DNA from: a virus
Strand: one strand, 5' to 3'
IMG/VR virus record: IMGVR_UViG_3300023178_000178
Span: 1 to 31,188 of that record
DNA: 31,188 bases
This document shows, piece after piece, positions 8,172 through 28,983 of the stretch (within the stretch, counting starts at the first letter, position 1; every line of letters begins with the position of its first letter). The notes beneath the pieces are model-generated. The model was not told the origin of the DNA. It saw nothing but the letters and a program-made list of their open reading frames with translations, and did not search any database. Made by a program: the position numbers and the translations under genes.

Positions 8172-9764
8172 ATGGAAAAAATTAAGTCTATAGCTAGTAG
8201 ATATGCAAACCTTGCTGCTAACAGAGATTCTTTTCTGCAAAGAGCAAGAGATGCAGCAGAGTTGACTGTACCAACTCTTATGCCACCAGAGGGTCATACT
8301 GGTTTTACTAACTATAAAACACCTTACCAAGCAGTTGGTGCAAGAGGTGTAAACAATCTTGCTAGTAAATTATTACTTACTCTTTTACCACCTAATTCAC
8401 CTTTCTTTAGATTAATTATTGATGATTTTGATATAGAAAAAATAGCAGGTAAAGAAGCAAGAGGAGCAATTGAAGAGGCTCTGTCTAGAATAGAAAGAAC
8501 ATCAATGCAGGAAATAGAATCAACTGCAATTCGTGTTCCAGTATATGAAGCATTAAAACAATTAATTGTAGCAGGTAATGCTTTATTGTTTTTCCCAAAA
8601 ACTGAGGGAGCAATGAAAGTATTTAGGTTAGATAGATATGTTGTAAAAAGAGACACGATGGGTAATGTAATGGAGGTTATAACTAAAGAGTCTGTATCTC
8701 CACTTATGTTACCAGAAAAAGCACGAATAATGCTTACTCAAGCAGATAATATTACTCAAGAAAGAGAAGCAGATTATAATAACAAAAACCTTGATTTATA
8801 TACTTATGTCTGTCGTAAGGAAGATAAGTTTCATATACATCAAGAAGTAAAAGGTATGGTTGTACCAGACTCAGAGGGTTTTTATCCCTTAAACAAAAGT
8901 CCATTTATTCCATTACGATTTACTAGAATTGATGGTGAAGATTATGGTCGTGGGTTTGTAGAAGAATACATAGGTGATTTAAGAAGTCTTGAAGCTTTAA
9001 CTAGAGCCATTGTAGAGGGTAGTGCTGCTTCTTCTAAAGTATTATTCTTAGTTAGACCTAACGGAACAACAAAACAAAATACACTAGCAAAAGCACCAAA
9101 TGGAGCAATTGTACAAGGTGATGCAAATGATGTAACAACTTTGCAGGTAAACAAATTTAATGATTTTAGAGTAGCACAAGAAACTGGATTAAGAATTACT
9201 GAACGATTATCTTTTGCTTTCTTACTTAATTCTTCTGTACAAAGACAAGCTGAACGAGTAACTGCAGAAGAAATAAGATTTATGGCACAAGAATTAGAAA
9301 GTGCACTTGGTGGTACTTATTCTATTCTTAGTCAAGAGTTTCAGTATCCACTAGTTGAGTTACTATTAGATAGGCTAGAGAAAAAGAAAAAGATGCCTAA
9401 AATGCCAAAAGATACAGTCAAACCACAGATTGTAACTGGGCTTGAGGCTTTAGGAAGAGGACAAGATTTAAATAAATTAGCACAATTTTTACAATATCTA
9501 CAACCATTAGGACCAGAGACTATCGCTTCTAGTCTTAATGTTGATGATTATATAGATAGACTAGGAGCATCGTTAGGAATTGATACTGGAGGTTTAATAA
9601 AAACACCAGAGCAAAAACAAGCAGAACAAGAACAAATGATGCAACAACAATCTATGAATAAACTAGAAGACACTATTTCTGGTATGGCACAAAAAGGTGC
9701 ATTACCAATAACCGAGAAAGCATTGGAACAAGTACAGCAACAAACTGACCAAGGAGTTGAATAA
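8172..9764 (+). CDS. Head-tail connector / portal protein (T7 gp8-like)
   Basis: 530 aa (T7 gp8 is 536). It forms the dodecameric ring through which DNA is packaged and ejected and on which the tail is built. The N-terminus (RYANLAANRDSFLQRARD, then LTVPTLMPP) and the stretch GARGVNNLASKLLLTLLPPN are typical of the T7 connector family. The segment ERLSFAFLLNSSVQRQAERV followed by TAEEIRFMAQELE is the conserved crown/wing region. The last 60 residues are rich in Gln. It is followed at 6 bases by the scaffold gene, as in T7. Confidence 0.95.
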   Translation: MEKIKSIASRYANLAANRDSFLQRARDAAELTVPTLMPPEGHTGFTNYKTPYQAVGARGVNNLASKLLLTLLPPNSPFFRLIIDDFDIEKIAGKEARGAIEEALSRIERTSMQEIESTAIRVPVYEALKQLIVAGNALLFFPKTEGAMKVFRLDRYVVKRDTMGNVMEVITKESVSPLMLPEKARIMLTQADNITQEREADYNNKNLDLYTYVCRKEDKFHIHQEVKGMVVPDSEGFYPLNKSPFIPLRFTRIDGEDYGRGFVEEYIGDLRSLEALTRAIVEGSAASSKVLFLVRPNGTTKQNTLAKAPNGAIVQGDANDVTTLQVNKFNDFRVAQETGLRITERLSFAFLLNSSVQRQAERVTAEEIRFMAQELESALGGTYSILSQEFQYPLVELLLDRLEKKKKMPKMPKDTVKPQIVTGLEALGRGQDLNKLAQFLQYLQPLGPETIASSLNVDDYIDRLGASLGIDTGGLIKTPEQKQAEQEQMMQQQSMNKLEDTISGMAQKGALPITEKALEQVQQQTDQGVE

Positions 9765-9769
9765 ACATT

Positions 9770-10534
9770 ATGGCTGAACAATTAAATACATATCAAGGGG
9801 AAACTCAAGAAGACCCTAATTATCAAAAAGAAATGGTAGAAAAAGCAGAAGCTGCAATACAGCCTCCTGCTACAGAAGAAGTCCAAGATAGACCAGACTG
9901 GCTACCAGAAAAATTTAACACTCCAGAAGATATGGCAAAAGCTTATTCTGAATTGGAGCAACAGTTTCACTCAAGTCGAGAAGCAGACAATGAGGCAGCT
10001 TTGGAAAACAAAGATGCAGCTATTGATGAACTAGAAGCACACGGAATTGACTATAGTGCTATGTCTCAAGACTTTTGGGAAAAAGGTGGTCTCTCAGATG
10101 AGCAGTATGACCAACTAGAAGATGCAGGTATACCATCAGATGTGGTAGACTCATTTATAGATGGACAGATGGCTCTTGTAGACCAAACTAGGCAACAAGC
10201 CTATAACTTAGTAGGAGGAGAAGAAGCCTACAAAAATATGATGGATTGGGCTGCAAATAACTTAACAGCAGATGAGCAAGAAGTATTTAACAGAACTGTT
10301 GATACTGGCAACCCTCAAGATGCTGTATTTGCAATTCAAGGTCTCCATTCTCGTTATCGTTCTGGTGTAGGTGTCGAACCAACCCTTGTAAAAGGTGAGG
10401 TAGGCGATGCAACAGTAGGGAACTTTCAAAGTCTGGCAGAAATTACTGCAGCGATGTCTGACCCAAGATACGAAAAAGACCCTGCGTATAGAAGTCAAGT
10501 AGCTGAAAAGTTACGAAAATCTTCTGTACTCTAA
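9770..10534 (+). CDS. Capsid assembly scaffold (T7 gp9-like)
   Basis: 254 aa, acidic, Gln/Glu-rich and predicted mostly helical, as expected for a scaffold that templates the prohead and is then lost. The motif RPDWLPEKFNTPEDMAKAY followed by SELE near residues 42-65 is typical of marine T7-like scaffold proteins. So is the C-terminal ITAAMSDPRYEKDPAYR, the end that in T7 contacts the capsid protein. It lies between the portal and the capsid gene. AAGGAG lies rather far (about 14 bases) upstream of the ATG. The stop is 1 base before dyad repeat copy 4. Confidence 0.92.
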   Translation: MAEQLNTYQGETQEDPNYQKEMVEKAEAAIQPPATEEVQDRPDWLPEKFNTPEDMAKAYSELEQQFHSSREADNEAALENKDAAIDELEAHGIDYSAMSQDFWEKGGLSDEQYDQLEDAGIPSDVVDSFIDGQMALVDQTRQQAYNLVGGEEAYKNMMDWAANNLTADEQEVFNRTVDTGNPQDAVFAIQGLHSRYRSGVGVEPTLVKGEVGDATVGNFQSLAEITAAMSDPRYEKDPAYRSQVAEKLRKSSVL

Positions 10535-10680: not shown

Positions 10681-11790
10681 ATGGCTATGCAAGGTGCATC
10701 AAATCCTGCCTATGATGTGAGTAGATTAGGACAGACTAACCTTACTGGTGATGTTCGTGATTTGTTTTTAAAGCTGTATGCAGGAGAAGTTCTTACTGCA
10801 TTTGAAGCAAAAAACATTATGATGCCTCTTATGAGGACTCGAACTATTACTAAAGGTAAGTCAGCATCCTTTCCATTCTTAGGTAGAACAAGTGCTGAGT
10901 ATCACACCCCTGGAAATGAAATTACTGGTGGTAAGATACGAGCATCAGAAAGAATCGTAACAATTGACGATTTGTTAATCTCGGCTCAATTTGTGCCAAA
11001 CATTGACGAGGCAATCAATCATTACGATGTAAGGTCGACATACAGTAAAGAGGCAGGAATTGCCTTGGCAACTGAAGCTGACAAAAACATAATTAGAACA
11101 GCACTAAAAGCTGCTCTAGCAACTAACGCAACAAGGGCTGCTGCTCTTGTTCAAGACTACAAAGCATTCTCTGAAGAAGATTTCACAGACAATGTGACTA
11201 TCGGTGCAGCATCTGGAGATGTTACAGACCCTGCTAAATTAGCAAAGTCTATCTTTGATGCGAAGAAAGAATTCGATAAGAAAAATGTTCCAACTGATGG
11301 TGCGTTTGTAGTATTACCACCAGACCAATACTATGCGTTATTGGATGTAACTGATGGTAATAAACTGGTCTATATGAATCGTGACTTTGGTGGTACTGGC
11401 TCAGTAGCATCTGCAGTTGTTCCACAAATTGCAGGTATGCCTATTTATATGTCTAACCACTTAGTAGTAGCTGATGTTATTGAAACATCTGGTACTGATA
11501 AAGGTCAGTCTAAAGGTAATAGACCACTTGCTAATACTGCAGGTTCTGGTAGAACTACTGCATATGACATTACTAATACTACTACAGATGGTGTTAACTT
11601 AGTTGACCTAGCTGCTAAAGTAAAAGGACTAGTAATGACTAAAGATGCTGTAGCTACTGTTAAGCTTATGGACCTTGGAGTAGAAAGCGAGTACCAAATT
11701 AATCGTCAAGGTACATTGATGGTTGCTAAGTATGCAATGGGTCACAACATTCTTAGACCTGCTGCTGCTATCGCACTATCTAGTGTCTAA
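10681..11790 (+). CDS. Major capsid protein (T7 gp10A-like)
   Basis: 369 aa (T7 gp10A is 345), HK97 fold by family. The N-terminus (GASNPAYDVSRLGQTNLTGD followed by VRDLFLKLYAGEVLTAFE) and SASFPFLGRTSAEYHTPG are the typical opening of T7-like capsid proteins. YDVRSTYSKEAGIALATEAD and the C-terminal NILRPAAAIALSS also fit. GC content and codon use look slightly less AT-biased than in flanking genes, as is common for the most expressed gene. It has the strongest Shine-Dalgarno sequence in the window. There is no slippery site for a gp10B-like frameshift at the end, which closes with tandem stop codons. A hairpin terminator follows 12 bases later. Confidence 0.96.
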   Translation: MAMQGASNPAYDVSRLGQTNLTGDVRDLFLKLYAGEVLTAFEAKNIMMPLMRTRTITKGKSASFPFLGRTSAEYHTPGNEITGGKIRASERIVTIDDLLISAQFVPNIDEAINHYDVRSTYSKEAGIALATEADKNIIRTALKAALATNATRAAALVQDYKAFSEEDFTDNVTIGAASGDVTDPAKLAKSIFDAKKEFDKKNVPTDGAFVVLPPDQYYALLDVTDGNKLVYMNRDFGGTGSVASAVVPQIAGMPIYMSNHLVVADVIETSGTDKGQSKGNRPLANTAGSGRTTAYDITNTTTDGVNLVDLAAKVKGLVMTKDAVATVKLMDLGVESEYQINRQGTLMVAKYAMGHNILRPAAAIALSSV

Positions 11791-11801
11791 TAATACTAAC
11801 T

Positions 11802-11829
11802 AGGGGAGTCCGAAAGGACTCCTCTTCTT
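11802..11829 (+). terminator. Hairpin terminator after the capsid gene (T-phi position)
   Basis: A 10-bp stem (11802-11811 AGGGGAGTCC with 11816-11825 GGACTCCTCT, one G-U pair) closed by a GAAA tetraloop and followed by a broken T-rich tail. T7 has its T-phi terminator at the same place. The short U-run suggests partial read-through, which would let tail genes be transcribed at a lower level. Confidence 0.75.
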
Positions 11830-11843
11830 ACTTGGAGAAAAAT

Positions 11844-11921
11844 ATGTCTTGGAATAAACCACAAGTAACAGAGGTAAGTGTTGGTCTTGAAATCAATGCT
11901 TATGTGTGTGCAGTACTATGA
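11844..11921 (+). CDS. pqqA: PqqA-like peptide (putative PQQ precursor)
   Basis: 25 aa, the first gene after the capsid terminator. It has the pattern of PqqA, the ribosomal peptide from which pyrroloquinoline quinone is made: Trp3, Lys5-Pro6, Glu10, Gly14, then E-I-N-A-Y with Glu16 and Tyr20. PqqE cross-links a Glu and a Tyr separated by three residues in PqqA (Glu15/Tyr19 in Klebsiella); the spacing here is the same. Length (usually 22-30 aa) also fits. The ATG has GGAG at 11834-11837, 6 bases upstream, and the TGA overlaps the next ATG as ATGA, so it is placed as a translated gene. No pqqB-E genes are visible, so maturation would depend on the host pathway. The closest form I recall is alphaproteobacterial or methylotroph PqqA with E-I-N-x-Y. 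The alternative is an unrelated peptide. Confidence 0.72.
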   Translation: MSWNKPQVTEVSVGLEINAYVCAVL

Positions 11922-12286
11922 GTACTGCCACAAAGCGAGACCCCAAAAAATGGGCTGCAGCTAAAGCCAGAGCAAAAGCCAAAATGGGTGGTAAACACTC
12001 AGCAAGGGCTATGCAACTTGCAGTAAAATATTATAAAGATGCAGGTGGTTCATATTCTGGACCAAAAAAATCAAACAATAAATTACGAAAGTGGGGTAGA
12101 CAAAAATGGCAATATGCAGGTAAAAAAGGTGAATCAAGATATTTACCTAAAAAAGCGATTGCTGCGTTATCGCCATCCGAAAGGGCAGCGACTAATCGGA
12201 AGAAAAAAGCAGACACAAGAGCAGGAAAGCAATTTAGTAAACAACCAAAATCAATCTCAAACAAAACTAGGAGGTACAGAGTATAA
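11918..12286 (+). CDS. DUF5872-like basic protein
   Basis: 122 aa from ATG 11918, which overlaps the PqqA-like stop. It is very basic. The order RDPKKWAAAKARAKAKMGGK, HSARAMQLAVKYYKDAGG, LRKWGRQKWQYAGKKGESRY-LPKKAI and LSPSERAATNRKKKAD is what I recall of DUF5872, a small family found in phages and large DNA viruses whose role is not established. Its basic, Trp-containing core suggests nucleic-acid binding. It ends in RRYRV, and the next protein ends in RKYRV. A GTG at 11906 would add four residues but sits inside the upstream gene. The gene lies in the accessory slot between the capsid and tail-tube A. Confidence 0.75.
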   Translation: MSTATKRDPKKWAAAKARAKAKMGGKHSARAMQLAVKYYKDAGGSYSGPKKSNNKLRKWGRQKWQYAGKKGESRYLPKKAIAALSPSERAATNRKKKADTRAGKQFSKQPKSISNKTRRYRV

Positions 12287-23721: not shown

Positions 23722-25413
23722 ATGCAAATAAATATAGATAAATTAGGTTATAGATGGGTTGGTCAATATTCTGCAACGGCAACCTATAAAGAAAATGATG
23801 TAGTATTCAAAGACTCTGGAACTTATAGAGTTGATGCTAGTGGTAATCTAATTGCTTTTGCTTTAGGTCAACAAGATGTTTTAACTAAAGGTCATTTACT
23901 TACTGGTGGAGATTCTGTTGGTGGTGTTAATTCACAACTTCTACATTCTAAATTAAATTCAGGAATTGAGTTTAGACATACAGATGAAAGAAACGGAACT
24001 TATGTAAAAAGATTGATGAGTTTTGGAAATAATAGTCCACATAGAGGACAATATTTAGGAACTTTTTATGATACTCCTATGGTTGTTATGTCAGACGGTA
24101 CAGTTAGACAATGGGGTAGAAGAAATAATGATGGTAGACACGGAACTGGAGTTTACGGACAGAACAGTAATACTTTTAGACCAGCTATGCTTCCTTTTCC
24201 TAAAGGAGTTGTAATTGATAAATTATATGGAAATGGAGTATTAAAAATTGCAATAGATACAAACGGTCATTCTTGGAGTTGGGGTAAATATGATGGAACA
24301 GATACAAACACAAGTGGTGCATCTAATCAACAAACACCAAAAAGAATGTATGATGTATTACCTGAATTAGAGAATGAAAAAATTGTAGATGTACATTGTG
24401 GCTATGGTTGGTACGGAGATGGTCACATATTAATGCTTACAGAAAGTGGCAAAGTATATGGTTGGGGTCAAAACAACTATGGTCAACTAGGAGATGGTAC
24501 TACTACCTTTGTATATACAGTAAAAAGAATTGGTGAAGAATTAGGCACAATAAAAAGAATGTTTTCTCTCCCTGCTACTTATGGTTGGACTTGTTTACAA
24601 ACAGAAGATAATACTTTATGGACAACTGGTAATCATAGTAATTATGGTCTAGCACCAACTGGAACTACTTTTCAAAAGGTAACTATGCTTAACTCAGTTG
24701 GTTCTCCAGTTATTGATATAACTTCAAGTATACACGATGGTCATTGGGCAGCAGGTTCTCAATACTATGGAACTCTTATGATTTTACATCAAAATGGAAA
24801 TGTTACTAACTTAACTAATAGTGGATTAAACCAAGCAGGTTGGGGTACACAAGGACAAAACGGTTATACTGTTGTGCCTAGTGACCCTTTTGAAACTAAC
24901 TGTGCAGAAATAATTGCTATGAATGGTGGATATGGTAGAGCACTCTCAAGAAGAACTGACGGTACAATATGGCATAGAGGTTATAGTGGATTTAGTACTA
25001 GTCCTACTGGTGGTAACACTACTGGTTGGAATCAATACAGAGATTACAATAACGAACCAATCACAAATGTAACTAAAATTAATATGCTCGGAGGTCACTA
25101 TGGAAGTCATTTCTCAGCACTTACTAGTGATGGAATATTGTATTGTTGGGGTGCGACAAATCAAGGAAGTGACGGAGCAGGTCTTGGAAGTAATTATAAT
25201 AATGCAACAACACCTACTGGTCTGTCACCAGTAAAAATACCTGAGAAAATCATTGACTATGATGTTGGTGGTTATTCATCAAGTGGAACTGGATATTTTA
25301 CAGTTCTAGCATTAACTGAAAGTAATACTTTGTATGCTTTTGGTTACAATAATTATTACGCAAGTAATGATTTTAACGGAGCACGATGGACTCCAAAAAG
25401 AGTTCAATTTTAA
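23722..25413 (+). CDS. RCC1-repeat tail fibre protein 1
   Basis: 563 aa. The N-terminal 40 residues (YRWVGQYSATATYKENDVVF) resemble the small aromatic binding modules found at the start of marine phage fibre proteins; the next gene has the same module. From about residue 110 the chain carries seven or eight RCC1-type repeats, recognisable by D-G-T-V-x-x-W-G and the clear unit GKVYGWGQNNYGQLGDGTTT near residue 245. RCC1 repeats form a seven-bladed beta-propeller, usually a protein-binding platform. Being directly downstream of the fibre adaptor, this is the likely distal host-recognition protein. There is no signal peptide. Many Gly, Asn, Tyr and Trp residues suit a secreted, sugar- or protein-binding surface. 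The blade assignment is by eye. Confidence 0.8.
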   Translation: MQINIDKLGYRWVGQYSATATYKENDVVFKDSGTYRVDASGNLIAFALGQQDVLTKGHLLTGGDSVGGVNSQLLHSKLNSGIEFRHTDERNGTYVKRLMSFGNNSPHRGQYLGTFYDTPMVVMSDGTVRQWGRRNNDGRHGTGVYGQNSNTFRPAMLPFPKGVVIDKLYGNGVLKIAIDTNGHSWSWGKYDGTDTNTSGASNQQTPKRMYDVLPELENEKIVDVHCGYGWYGDGHILMLTESGKVYGWGQNNYGQLGDGTTTFVYTVKRIGEELGTIKRMFSLPATYGWTCLQTEDNTLWTTGNHSNYGLAPTGTTFQKVTMLNSVGSPVIDITSSIHDGHWAAGSQYYGTLMILHQNGNVTNLTNSGLNQAGWGTQGQNGYTVVPSDPFETNCAEIIAMNGGYGRALSRRTDGTIWHRGYSGFSTSPTGGNTTGWNQYRDYNNEPITNVTKINMLGGHYGSHFSALTSDGILYCWGATNQGSDGAGLGSNYNNATTPTGLSPVKIPEKIIDYDVGGYSSSGTGYFTVLALTESNTLYAFGYNNYYASNDFNGARWTPKRVQF

Positions 25414-25438: not shown

Positions 25439-27574
25439 ATGACTACAGTAAGTCTTGGCAAAGTATCTTTTACTTGGAAAGGAAGCTATGATGCCAGTAC
25501 AACTTATAATTCACAAGATGTTGTGGAATATAACGGAGATTCATTTGTATGTGTAACAGATAATACAACTGGAACTACACCAACTACAACTAGTTCTACA
25601 ACTAGTCCAACAACAAGTAATCTAACAGTAACTGTACAACAATATTATGGCAGTAATTATTTTTACATTGATGGTGTAAAGACACCAACATTACAGCTTT
25701 ACGAGGGTAATACTTATGTGTTTGATGTTTCAGATTCTAGTCTTTCCAACCATCCTTTAAAGTTTTCAACAACAAGTGATGGTACTCACAACTCAGGTAC
25801 TGAATATACAACTGGAGTTACCACAAATGGAACAGCAGGTTCTTCTGGTGCAACAGTTACAATAGTAGTAGCTTCTGATGCTCCTATACTTTACTATTAT
25901 TGTGGAAATCACTCAGGAATGGGTGGAACAGCTAATACACCAACTTATGCTACAACAACAACAACAACATCTAATTGGAATTTACTTGCTCAAGGTAGTC
26001 TAGGGGTAGGTCAAAATTCTGGTGATTTAATTTATTTTGATGGTACACAATTACAGAGGCTTCCAACTGGTAATGCCAATCAAGTATTAAAAATAGATGG
26101 TACTACACAACTTCCAGTTTGGGGTGATACAAATTACAGAAGTGGTGTTAAAGGTAAGTATCTATGGAACTTTAGTGCTATGTCTTACAGAAGAAATTTT
26201 TGTGTAATGGAAGATGGTACTATGCGAGGTTGGGGTACAAACTCATACGGTACTCTAGGAGATGGTACTACGACAACTAGGTATGCTCCAGTAACTCCTG
26301 CATTTGACAATGCAAATAATTTTACTGGAATAAAACTAGAGTCTGATGGCACTATGAGAGATGGTGTTATAAAAGCTACTTATTATAATATGAATATTAT
26401 AGGCAACAACGGACACTTATATACTTGGGGTCAGAATTCGTATAGTCAAATTGCTGATGGAACGACAACAAATAGATTAACACCTTATGATGCTACTGCT
26501 GACTCAGCCAACTCATTAAATGGAAAAGAAGCATATCAAATAGCACAAACTGTTACTGCTCAAAATTATGATTCTCTAATGGTGTTATGTACTGACGGAA
26601 CACTTCACGGTGTTGGTTATAATGGTTATGGTCAATTAGGAAACTCATCTACAACAAACGCAAATAGATTTGGTGCTGTTTCTCAGACAGCTCTTAAATT
26701 TTGGAAAGTATTTGGAAGTGGGGATAGATACACTTCTTATATTGGATTAGGTGCAGTATATGGAGATGCACTAGTTGGTGGTGGTACAGTTGGTTCAACT
26801 ACTGATATTTTAACAGAAACACCAGTAACATTTAGAGTTTACTTCTGGGGTTATGCAGGAGATTATCAGAATGGTTTTAATACAAACACTAACTATTCTG
26901 TACCAACAGAAATAACTACTTTTTATTCAAACACTAATAATATAATTAAGTGTGTTCCAACAAGACACTCTTGGTTTGCTTTAAGTGATAATGGAACTTT
27001 ATATGGTTGGGGTTATCCTTATGGTGGGCATCTTGGTAACGGAACAACATCCACAACTCAAGCTGTTACACAAATTGAAACTAATGTAGCTGAAATAGTT
27101 GCATCAAAATCATCTAACGGAAATACTTGTGCTTGGTATAGAAAAACAAATGGTGAAGTATATGCTAGTGGGTATAACGGTTACGGACAACTAGGTGTAG
27201 GCGATACAACTGCAAGAAGCACATTTACACAATCAGCAACTGCTCCTACAAATATAACCAAGATGGTTGTATCAGGTGGGGAGAACTATGATTCTGTAAT
27301 GGCTTTAACATCTGACAACGAAGTATATGGGGTTGGATACAATGGTGTAGGTAATCTAGGAATTGGTAACACAACTAACCAAAGCACTTGGCAAAAAGCA
27401 TTATTTCAAAAACCAATAGTTGATATATGTTCTCTTGGTCACAATGGTTCAGAAAACGGTTATACAATTATTACTGATGATGGTGGAGTGTATTCTACTG
27501 GATATGGTAATACTGGTCAAACTGGTGATTATAGTGGTAATAATCAATCAACATTCCAACCAATTATATTCTAA
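25439..27574 (+). CDS. RCC1-repeat tail fibre protein 2 with a cupredoxin-like domain
   Basis: 711 aa. Order: an N-terminal module (FTWKGSYDASTTYNSQDVV) like that of the previous protein; a Thr-rich linker (42-60); a beta-sandwich of about 105 residues (62-168); a second Thr linker; then seven or eight RCC1 repeats such as GTLYGWGYPYGGHLGNGTTS and GEVYASGYNGYGQLGVGDTT. The inserted domain has His105 in SNHPLKFS and Cys155, His158 and Met161 in YYYCGNHSGMGG. That is a His/Cys/His/Met type 1 copper set with the C-x2-H-x2-M spacing of amicyanin. Similar domains occur in other marine proteins, to my memory, but copper binding on a phage fibre is untested. The RCC1 part is a diverged paralogue of the preceding gene. 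AAAGGAGC precedes the ATG. Confidence 0.8.
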   Translation: MTTVSLGKVSFTWKGSYDASTTYNSQDVVEYNGDSFVCVTDNTTGTTPTTTSSTTSPTTSNLTVTVQQYYGSNYFYIDGVKTPTLQLYEGNTYVFDVSDSSLSNHPLKFSTTSDGTHNSGTEYTTGVTTNGTAGSSGATVTIVVASDAPILYYYCGNHSGMGGTANTPTYATTTTTTSNWNLLAQGSLGVGQNSGDLIYFDGTQLQRLPTGNANQVLKIDGTTQLPVWGDTNYRSGVKGKYLWNFSAMSYRRNFCVMEDGTMRGWGTNSYGTLGDGTTTTRYAPVTPAFDNANNFTGIKLESDGTMRDGVIKATYYNMNIIGNNGHLYTWGQNSYSQIADGTTTNRLTPYDATADSANSLNGKEAYQIAQTVTAQNYDSLMVLCTDGTLHGVGYNGYGQLGNSSTTNANRFGAVSQTALKFWKVFGSGDRYTSYIGLGAVYGDALVGGGTVGSTTDILTETPVTFRVYFWGYAGDYQNGFNTNTNYSVPTEITTFYSNTNNIIKCVPTRHSWFALSDNGTLYGWGYPYGGHLGNGTTSTTQAVTQIETNVAEIVASKSSNGNTCAWYRKTNGEVYASGYNGYGQLGVGDTTARSTFTQSATAPTNITKMVVSGGENYDSVMALTSDNEVYGVGYNGVGNLGIGNTTNQSTWQKALFQKPIVDICSLGHNGSENGYTIITDDGGVYSTGYGNTGQTGDYSGNNQSTFQPIIF

Positions 27575-28372: not shown

Positions 28373-28744
28373 ATGATTTTTGGAGCAATAACAAATATTT
28401 TAGGTAGTGTAGTAAAAGGCTACTTTGAAACTAAAAAAGAGAAAGCAAAACAAAAGCTATTACAAGTACAAGCTGAGACAAAGATAATGGAAAAGAAAGT
28501 CTCAGGGGAAATTGATTGGGATATGGAAATGGCGAAAGCAAGTGACAATTCGTGGAAAGACGAATGGCTCACAATAATTTTTTCTATACCCCTTGTTTTA
28601 CTTTTGCTAGGGCAAGAGGAAAGAGTAACAGCTTTCTTTGCAGCTTTAGAAAGAGCACCAGATTGGTACACCTACCTGCTCGGTACAATTGTAGCTGCGT
28701 CATTCGGTATTCGTGGTGCTACTAAATTCTTTGGAAAGAAATAA
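28373..28744 (+). CDS. Holin, 3TM GTA-type family
   Basis: 123 aa. The pattern is an N-terminal amphipathic or membrane-surface helix (FGAITNILGSVVKGYF), a charged linker, SWKDEWLTIIFSIPLVLLLL (first clear span), then a Trp-Tyr-rich turn (PDWYTYLLG) and a second span ending in ASFGIRGATKF. This order, with the W-K-D-E-W and F-G-I-R landmarks, is what I recall of the 3TM holin family (GTA_holin_3TM). A holin would permeabilise the inner membrane so that the amidase can reach peptidoglycan. GAGGAGG lies just before the ATG, and the stop overlaps the HNH gene. Confidence 0.8.
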   Translation: MIFGAITNILGSVVKGYFETKKEKAKQKLLQVQAETKIMEKKVSGEIDWDMEMAKASDNSWKDEWLTIIFSIPLVLLLLGQEERVTAFFAALERAPDWYTYLLGTIVAASFGIRGATKFFGKK

Positions 28745-28983
28745 TGAAGAAAAGAAACTATAGAAAAGAGTATGATGATTATCACGGAACTCCAGAACAA
28801 AAGAAACGCAGAGTCGGTAGAAATGCTGCTAGGCGATATGCTATTAGACAAGGTAAAGTAAGAAAGGGCGATGGTAAGGAAGTCGACCATAAGGATTTTA
28901 ACACAACTAATAATAGTCCTAGTAATCTTAGAATTATGTCTAAGTCAGCTAACCGAAGCAAACAACCTAAAAGGAAAGGCTAA
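28744..28983 (+). CDS. Small HNH endonuclease
   Basis: 79 aa. EVDHKDFNTTNNSPSNLRIM is a compact HNH motif: Asp-His at residues 48-49 and Asn near 60 in the NNSPSNLR segment, followed by the Asn of NRSKQ. The N-terminal part is basic (RKEYDDYHGTPEQKKRRVGR) and likely binds DNA. Free-standing HNH genes next to terminase genes are frequent in phages; in HK97-like phages such proteins boost terminase cleavage, and a similar packaging role is plausible here. A homing endonuclease origin is the alternative. ATG shares a base with the holin stop. Confidence 0.85.
   Translation: MKKRNYRKEYDDYHGTPEQKKRRVGRNAARRYAIRQGKVRKGDGKEVDHKDFNTTNNSPSNLRIMSKSANRSKQPKRKG

Follow-up and report, generated by a model that had tools for sequence, protein, structure and literature searches.

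A pqqA frame beside the capsid gene of a T7-like phage

The window analysed here comprises 31,188 nucleotides (positions 1 to 31,188 of the IMG/VR virus record IMGVR_UViG_3300023178_000178) and contains, on the downstream side of its major capsid protein gene, a short reading frame extending from ATG to TGA, whose 25 codons are translated into the peptide MSWNKPQVTEVSVGLEINAYVCAVL (Table 1). As described in an earlier note made from the letters of this DNA, the frame is preceded by a ribosome binding site and its stop codon overlaps with the start codon of the following gene in the sequence ATGA at positions 11918-11921.

Table 1. Features surrounding the pqqA frame in the window.
Feature	Position	Strand	Basis
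Portal (head-tail adaptor)	8172..9764	+	PHROG 449
Head assembly/scaffolding protein	9770..10534	+	PHROG 1052
Major capsid protein gene	10681..11790	+	PHROG 267 major head protein, E=9.5e-82
Terminator-like hairpin, 10-pair stem with broken T run, 3' of the capsid gene and upstream of pqqA	11802..11825	+	
Shine-Dalgarno-like GGAGA for pqqA, few bases 5' of the ATG	11834..11838	+	Read from sequence
pqqA, 25-residue PqqA-type PQQ precursor peptide	11844..11921	+	Translation; TIGR02107, PF08042
Small basic conserved protein MSTATKRDP...	11918..12286	+	PHROG 14910, unknown function

The same note had proposed a relationship of the peptide to PqqA, the precursor of PQQ, and had suggested a search against PqqA families. 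In profile searches the peptide matches the PqqA equivalog TIGR02107 with an E-value of 1.2e-10 (41 bits, cut-off 20) and PF08042 with an E-value of 3.3e-7 (30.6 bits, cut-off 21.1). Since it scores above both curated cut-offs, the match is not accidental, and it is far beyond chance even if the many small frames contained in 31 kb are taken into account. All residues that had been listed as characteristic are found, including Trp 3, Lys 5-Pro 6, Glu 10, Gly 14 and the E-I-N-A-Y stretch encompassing Glu 16 and Tyr 20 (numbered following PMC10906245). The core of the peptide reads G14-L-E16-I-N-A-Y20, with three residues separating Glu and Tyr and the glycine preceding the glutamate by two positions, which places both residues at the cross-linking positions of PqqA. 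The peptide shares its length class, the W-x-x-P leader, the G-x-E-[IV]-x-x-Y core, the numbering of Glu 16 and Tyr 20 and the curated family scores with cellular PqqA such as that of Methylorubrum extorquens. It differs from its cellular counterparts in that the gene stands alone in a phage, with no PqqE found in the window record.

The surroundings of the gene are those of a phage, as the earlier note had recognized. Matches to phage families identify the portal, scaffold, major capsid, tail and internal virion proteins and the terminase, and genes coding for a DNA polymerase, a primase-helicase and a ribonucleotide reductase are located upstream. The tail fibre contains a T7 N-terminal domain and the genes follow a T7-like order (tail fibre N-terminus, head-tail adaptor, scaffold, capsid, internal virion protein, terminase). 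The window belongs to a marine T7-like podovirus carrying pqqA alone, with the early region coding for the RNA polymerase located outside of the window. Its large terminase is closest to those of marine Roseobacter phages such as CRP-125 (about 61%), and no tRNA genes were found in the window. Further features include a tandem pair of tail-region genes (23722-25413 and 25439-27574) with RCC1-like beta-propeller repeats (Pfam RCC1, RCC1_2), both of which probably encode receptor-binding proteins, and a small HNH endonuclease gene (28744-28983; Pfam HNH_3) located shortly 5' of the terminase gene. The region of the portal gene has an inverted match of 67% identity in another contig (1552-2633), which may be a chimera.

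Presence and absence of pqqA in two phage lineages and the presumed host

The gene occupies the same place in seven other IMG/VR contigs, whose capsid proteins are at least 98% identical to that of the window. Within this clade the peptide differs only by the changes V8I, V21A and L25Q, and Glu 16 and Tyr 20 are invariant in the window and all seven contigs, in line with the conservation at the same locus that the earlier note had proposed to check. The three differences seen in the 75 nucleotides all alter an amino acid, and the clade on its own therefore does not show selection. Relatives with about 90% identical capsids cleanly lack pqqA, and in these the MSTATKRDP gene directly follows the capsid terminator. 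The slot behind this terminator is variable, and the small genes found there in relatives include those starting with MSYKEMAKSLENKF..., MTKGLYDNIHAKRK... and MKIPKKSRVNEAGNY....

A second lineage, identified by the motif G-L-E-I-N-A-Y, encodes a capsid protein that is about 40% identical to that of the window, and its PqqA (MAIWTKPKVQAIAIGLEINAYACAKK; TIGR02107, E=8.4e-8) differs from the window peptide. Here, pqqA starts 18 bases past the stop codon of the capsid gene and ahead of the terminator, and both genes could therefore be part of a single late transcript. In this lineage the empty site is found in phages with 95-97% identical capsids, which contain the same terminator and no pqqA. 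In both lineages, pqqA thus forms a clean small cassette on the capsid side, located in different registers with respect to the terminator, and close relatives of each lineage lack the gene.

The vicinity to the capsid gene had led to the prediction of strong late expression. The position on the capsid side stands and its consequence is plain in the second lineage, but in the window the terminator-like hairpin intervenes and transcription would have to read through. With this hairpin between the capsid gene and pqqA, strong late expression cannot be counted on from simple read-through, and the expression of pqqA in the window phage may be limited by it. At the same site, the hairpin of relatives lacking pqqA contains an unbroken run of seven T.

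The peptide was also compared to cellular sequences. The EINAY type followed by [AV]-C-A is found in 23 GTDB contigs, the titles of which all refer to alphaproteobacteria or groups within. In a sample of alphaproteobacteria, 55 of 385 genomes contain a match, with a best identity of 74% at most. Streamlined genomes are among those with the best matches, several of them carrying pqqA in two or three copies, and in one alphaproteobacterial genome three tandem copies precede pqqB. While the C-terminal tail of the peptide in the window clade reads VL or VQ, alphaproteobacterial relatives mostly carry an acidic residue after CA. Judged by its sequence, the PqqA of the window belongs to the alphaproteobacterial type, and the most probable host of the phage is a PQQ-making marine alphaproteobacterium. 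The type of the peptide also makes an OM43 methylotroph a less probable host than such a bacterium. The PQQ-making methylotroph that the earlier note had offered as example of a host is consequently not supported for the window phage with its alphaproteobacterial-type peptide and Roseobacter-phage-like terminase, although it is documented for cultured phages carrying the other type of PqqA.

Distribution and conservation of viral pqqA

A scan of IMG/VR with the pattern W-x2-P-x3-[ED]-x3-G-x-E-[IV]-x2-Y identified at least 120 stretches, and about 117 of the 120 stretches listed encode stand-alone PqqA-like peptides. Together with two further scans, the number of viral pqqA loci amounts to at least 295. 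The peptides fall into a beta/gamma-like type (with an example of 23 residues) and an alpha-like type (exemplified by MWSKPIITEISVGLEINSYACAEK), and the genes in their neighbourhood include exonucleases, Sak-like annealing proteins, endolysins, portals, capsids and terminases. No PHROG family covering PqqA was found. In another locus, a frame at about position 1684 (+) has a PqqA-like start (WTEPEITEVSVGLEINSYACA) that continues into a long acidic tail rich in Asp, Glu and Ser without encountering a stop codon.

In two scans, one for beta-type and one for alpha-type peptides, codons 16 and 20 were left free, and Glu 16 and Tyr 20 are retained in 120 of 120 beta-type and 120 of 120 alpha-type matches listed. 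The variation at these positions in related sequences, which the earlier note had named as argument against its own proposal, is thus absent from all 240. At codons that were not fixed by the pattern of the first scan, the overall pN/pS is 0.46 for the alpha and 0.30 for the beta type, with values of 0.25 and 0.12 in the core and 0.88 and 0.63 in the leader, respectively. As judged from these ratios, purifying selection acts across viral pqqA and is stronger in the core than in the leader.

PqqE was not detected above the cut-off in any of 50 longer viral records containing pqqA, whereas in two samples of cell genomes encoding a comparable PqqA it exceeds the cut-off in 11 of 13 and 12 of 16 cases. 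As far as tested by this key enzyme, viruses with pqqA appear to carry the substrate only. The adjacency to pqqBCDE that is usual for pqqA is consequently seen neither in the window nor in the 50 viral records, which does not preclude membership in the PqqA family since dispersed copies of pqqA are also found in cells. The PQQ_2 domain (PF13360) was found in one of the 50 records only, and most viruses with pqqA therefore show no PQQ dehydrogenase.

In searches of cultured phages, the beta-type query matches nine phages infecting Methylophilales/Methylophilaceae, namely P19250A, MEP301, Venkman, MEP401, MEP402 and four Melnitz phages, which were found by beta-type queries only. A tblastn search of the phage collection with alpha-type queries (the window peptide and two others) gave no true match. 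In all five cultured-phage records viewed, a ribosome binding site precedes the pqqA frame, which lacks a CDS annotation. The Melnitz record contains a hypothetical CDS on the opposite strand, and the publications describing MEP301, MEP401 and Melnitz make no mention of viral pqqA. As in the window, pqqA stands alone in the cultured phages, follows a ribosome binding site and has no annotated pqq enzymes in its vicinity. Unlike the window phage with its 25-residue alphaproteobacterial-type peptide, they encode beta-type peptides of 23-24 residues (EVTMY), belong to other phage families and contain the gene at other genome positions. Many genomes of one cell family, probably the Methylophilaceae, encode a peptide identical to that of P19250A, and in this family 80 of 80 genomes searched, some with a size of 1.2-1.3 Mb, carry between 1 and 12 copies of pqqA. 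A further candidate, the Acinetobacter phage MD-2021a (CAKLQF020000010.1), was rejected, as the presence of a polyphosphate kinase and of pqqA-pqqB-pqqC identifies the record as host chromosome.

A different arrangement is found in the 72-kb phage-like contig IMGVR_UViG_3300025120_009955, which combines pqqA with a PQQ-dependent dehydrogenase of the methanol/ethanol family (TIGR03075, 608 bits), a formate dehydrogenase and a quinoprotein-associated SoxYZ-like carrier. By its gene content this contig would hold a methylotrophy module in a virus, and it resembles a virus from Lake Baikal that encodes methanol dehydrogenase together with PqqA (PMC7678222). The contig also contains frames resembling GroEL and ribonucleotide reductase.

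Proposed function and its alternatives

The earlier note had proposed that the phage supplies extra precursor to a host that already contains the enzymes for PQQ synthesis. This reading has held up in sequence comparisons, where all 240 listed matches keep both cross-linked residues, and we consider it likely that pqqA is an auxiliary metabolic gene providing PqqA to a host equipped with pqqBCDE. In the established pathway PqqD binds the leader of PqqA and PqqE together with PqqD cross-links Glu 16 and Tyr 20, whereby one peptide is used per PQQ while the enzymes turn over (PMC10906245). The phage peptide would be translated during infection and enter the pathway of the host, with binding by PqqD, cross-linking by PqqE and conversion to PQQ by a protease, PqqB and PqqC. 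The newly made cofactor would load a PQQ-dependent dehydrogenase of the host, which may sustain the supply of energy or carbon during phage production. If the phage stops host transcription, PqqA would be the first component to be exhausted, and 75 bases of DNA might suffice to restore the flux. Such consumption would also explain why the phage carries pqqA only, because one peptide is destroyed per PQQ whereas the catalytic enzymes are already present in the cell. Work cited in PMC9851590 describes the conversion of added PqqA to PQQ by an extract of Gluconobacter, and work cited in PMC8102297 an improved growth of Gluconobacter after the addition of either pqqA alone or pqqABCDE together with fused dehydrogenases. 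Mature PQQ dehydrogenases may, however, hold their cofactor firmly, in which case newly made PQQ might be of limited use in the course of a single lytic cycle.

Phages often inhibit pathways of their host, and the peptide could conversely act as decoy that binds PqqD or PqqE and prevents PQQ from being made, which might serve, for instance, to shut down a competing host respiration. PqqD would be within reach of the peptide, which contains the PqqD-binding leader region (PMC10906245). However, titration would require the leader and not the cross-linked residues, and it is the leader that varies most and the core with its invariant Glu 16 and Tyr 20 that varies least, which weakens the case for a decoy. 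The several copies of pqqA found in hosts themselves also suggest that extra PqqA is tolerated. We thus regard inhibition as quite unlikely and favour a working substrate, since it is the chemistry that is conserved rather than the leader.

PQQ might alternatively be made for a non-metabolic purpose, by altering a TonB-dependent receptor and thereby reducing superinfection, as PQQ is known to block the PqqU-dependent phage IsaakIselin on E. coli (PMC12124388). There, the cofactor was supplied from outside to a host that does not produce it, nothing links the window phage to a PqqU-like receptor and pqqA is found in unrelated types of phages, which together render this use very unlikely. An equally low probability is assigned to a role as translational leader, where the small frame would matter only by coupling to the next gene. 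Although the good ribosome binding site and the ATGA overlap (11834-11921) would suit this purpose, the residues are specific for PqqA, the next gene directly follows the terminator in relatives without pqqA, and the overlap is found neither in the second lineage nor in the cultured phages viewed. Finally, contamination by host DNA, mis-assembly or a dead passenger can be dismissed as extremely improbable since, even if IMG/VR contigs can hold stretches of host DNA and the MD-2021a record is a host pqq operon, the same junction is found in eight contigs (the window and seven others), the other lineage has relatives with an empty site, complete genomes of cultured phages contain the gene, PqqE was found neither in the window record nor above the cut-off in the 50 viral records, and viral pqqA is under purifying selection.

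A function as substrate for host PQQ synthesis relates pqqA to phage auxiliary metabolic genes such as psbA, mazG and phoH, which are likewise derived from the host and thought to sustain the metabolism of infected cells. To our knowledge, auxiliary metabolic genes have so far supplied enzymes or protein subunits, whereas pqqA would provide the consumable ribosomal substrate of a RiPP-type cofactor pathway. Viral PqqA was previously reported in the Lake Baikal methylotroph virus VP_266 and there proposed as auxiliary gene for host PQQ (PMC7678222), and it is listed in a reservoir study (PMC13188868). The window shares with VP_266 a viral pqqA that is read in the same way. VP_266, which is linked to methylotroph hosts, additionally encodes a methanol dehydrogenase, whereas the window is a T7-like phage with an alphaproteobacterial-type peptide encoded next to the capsid gene and no dehydrogenase seen. 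We found no paper in the open-access literature searched on the breadth of viral pqqA, its substrate-only pattern or its presence in cultured methylophages. All three appear to be unreported, and the nine genes in cultured methylophages have seemingly been missed until now.

Taken together, we find it reasonably probable that the supply of PqqA is a general and convergent strategy of aquatic phages infecting PQQ-dependent bacteria, in which unrelated families have gained a gene of about 75 bases, sometimes beside the capsid gene, and which would be very common in phages of obligate methylotrophs and overlooked because the gene is shorter than gene callers accept. Current annotation misses pqqA, for which there is no PHROG family, and nine methylophages with cultured hosts already carry it. 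If our interpretation is correct, the gene would serve as sequence marker for viruses of PQQ-making hosts. Our results suggest that what viruses replenish in a host pathway is its starting material and not an enzyme, in which case a gene of 75 bases would allow phages to tune the oxidation of methanol, alcohols or sugars in abundant aquatic bacteria.
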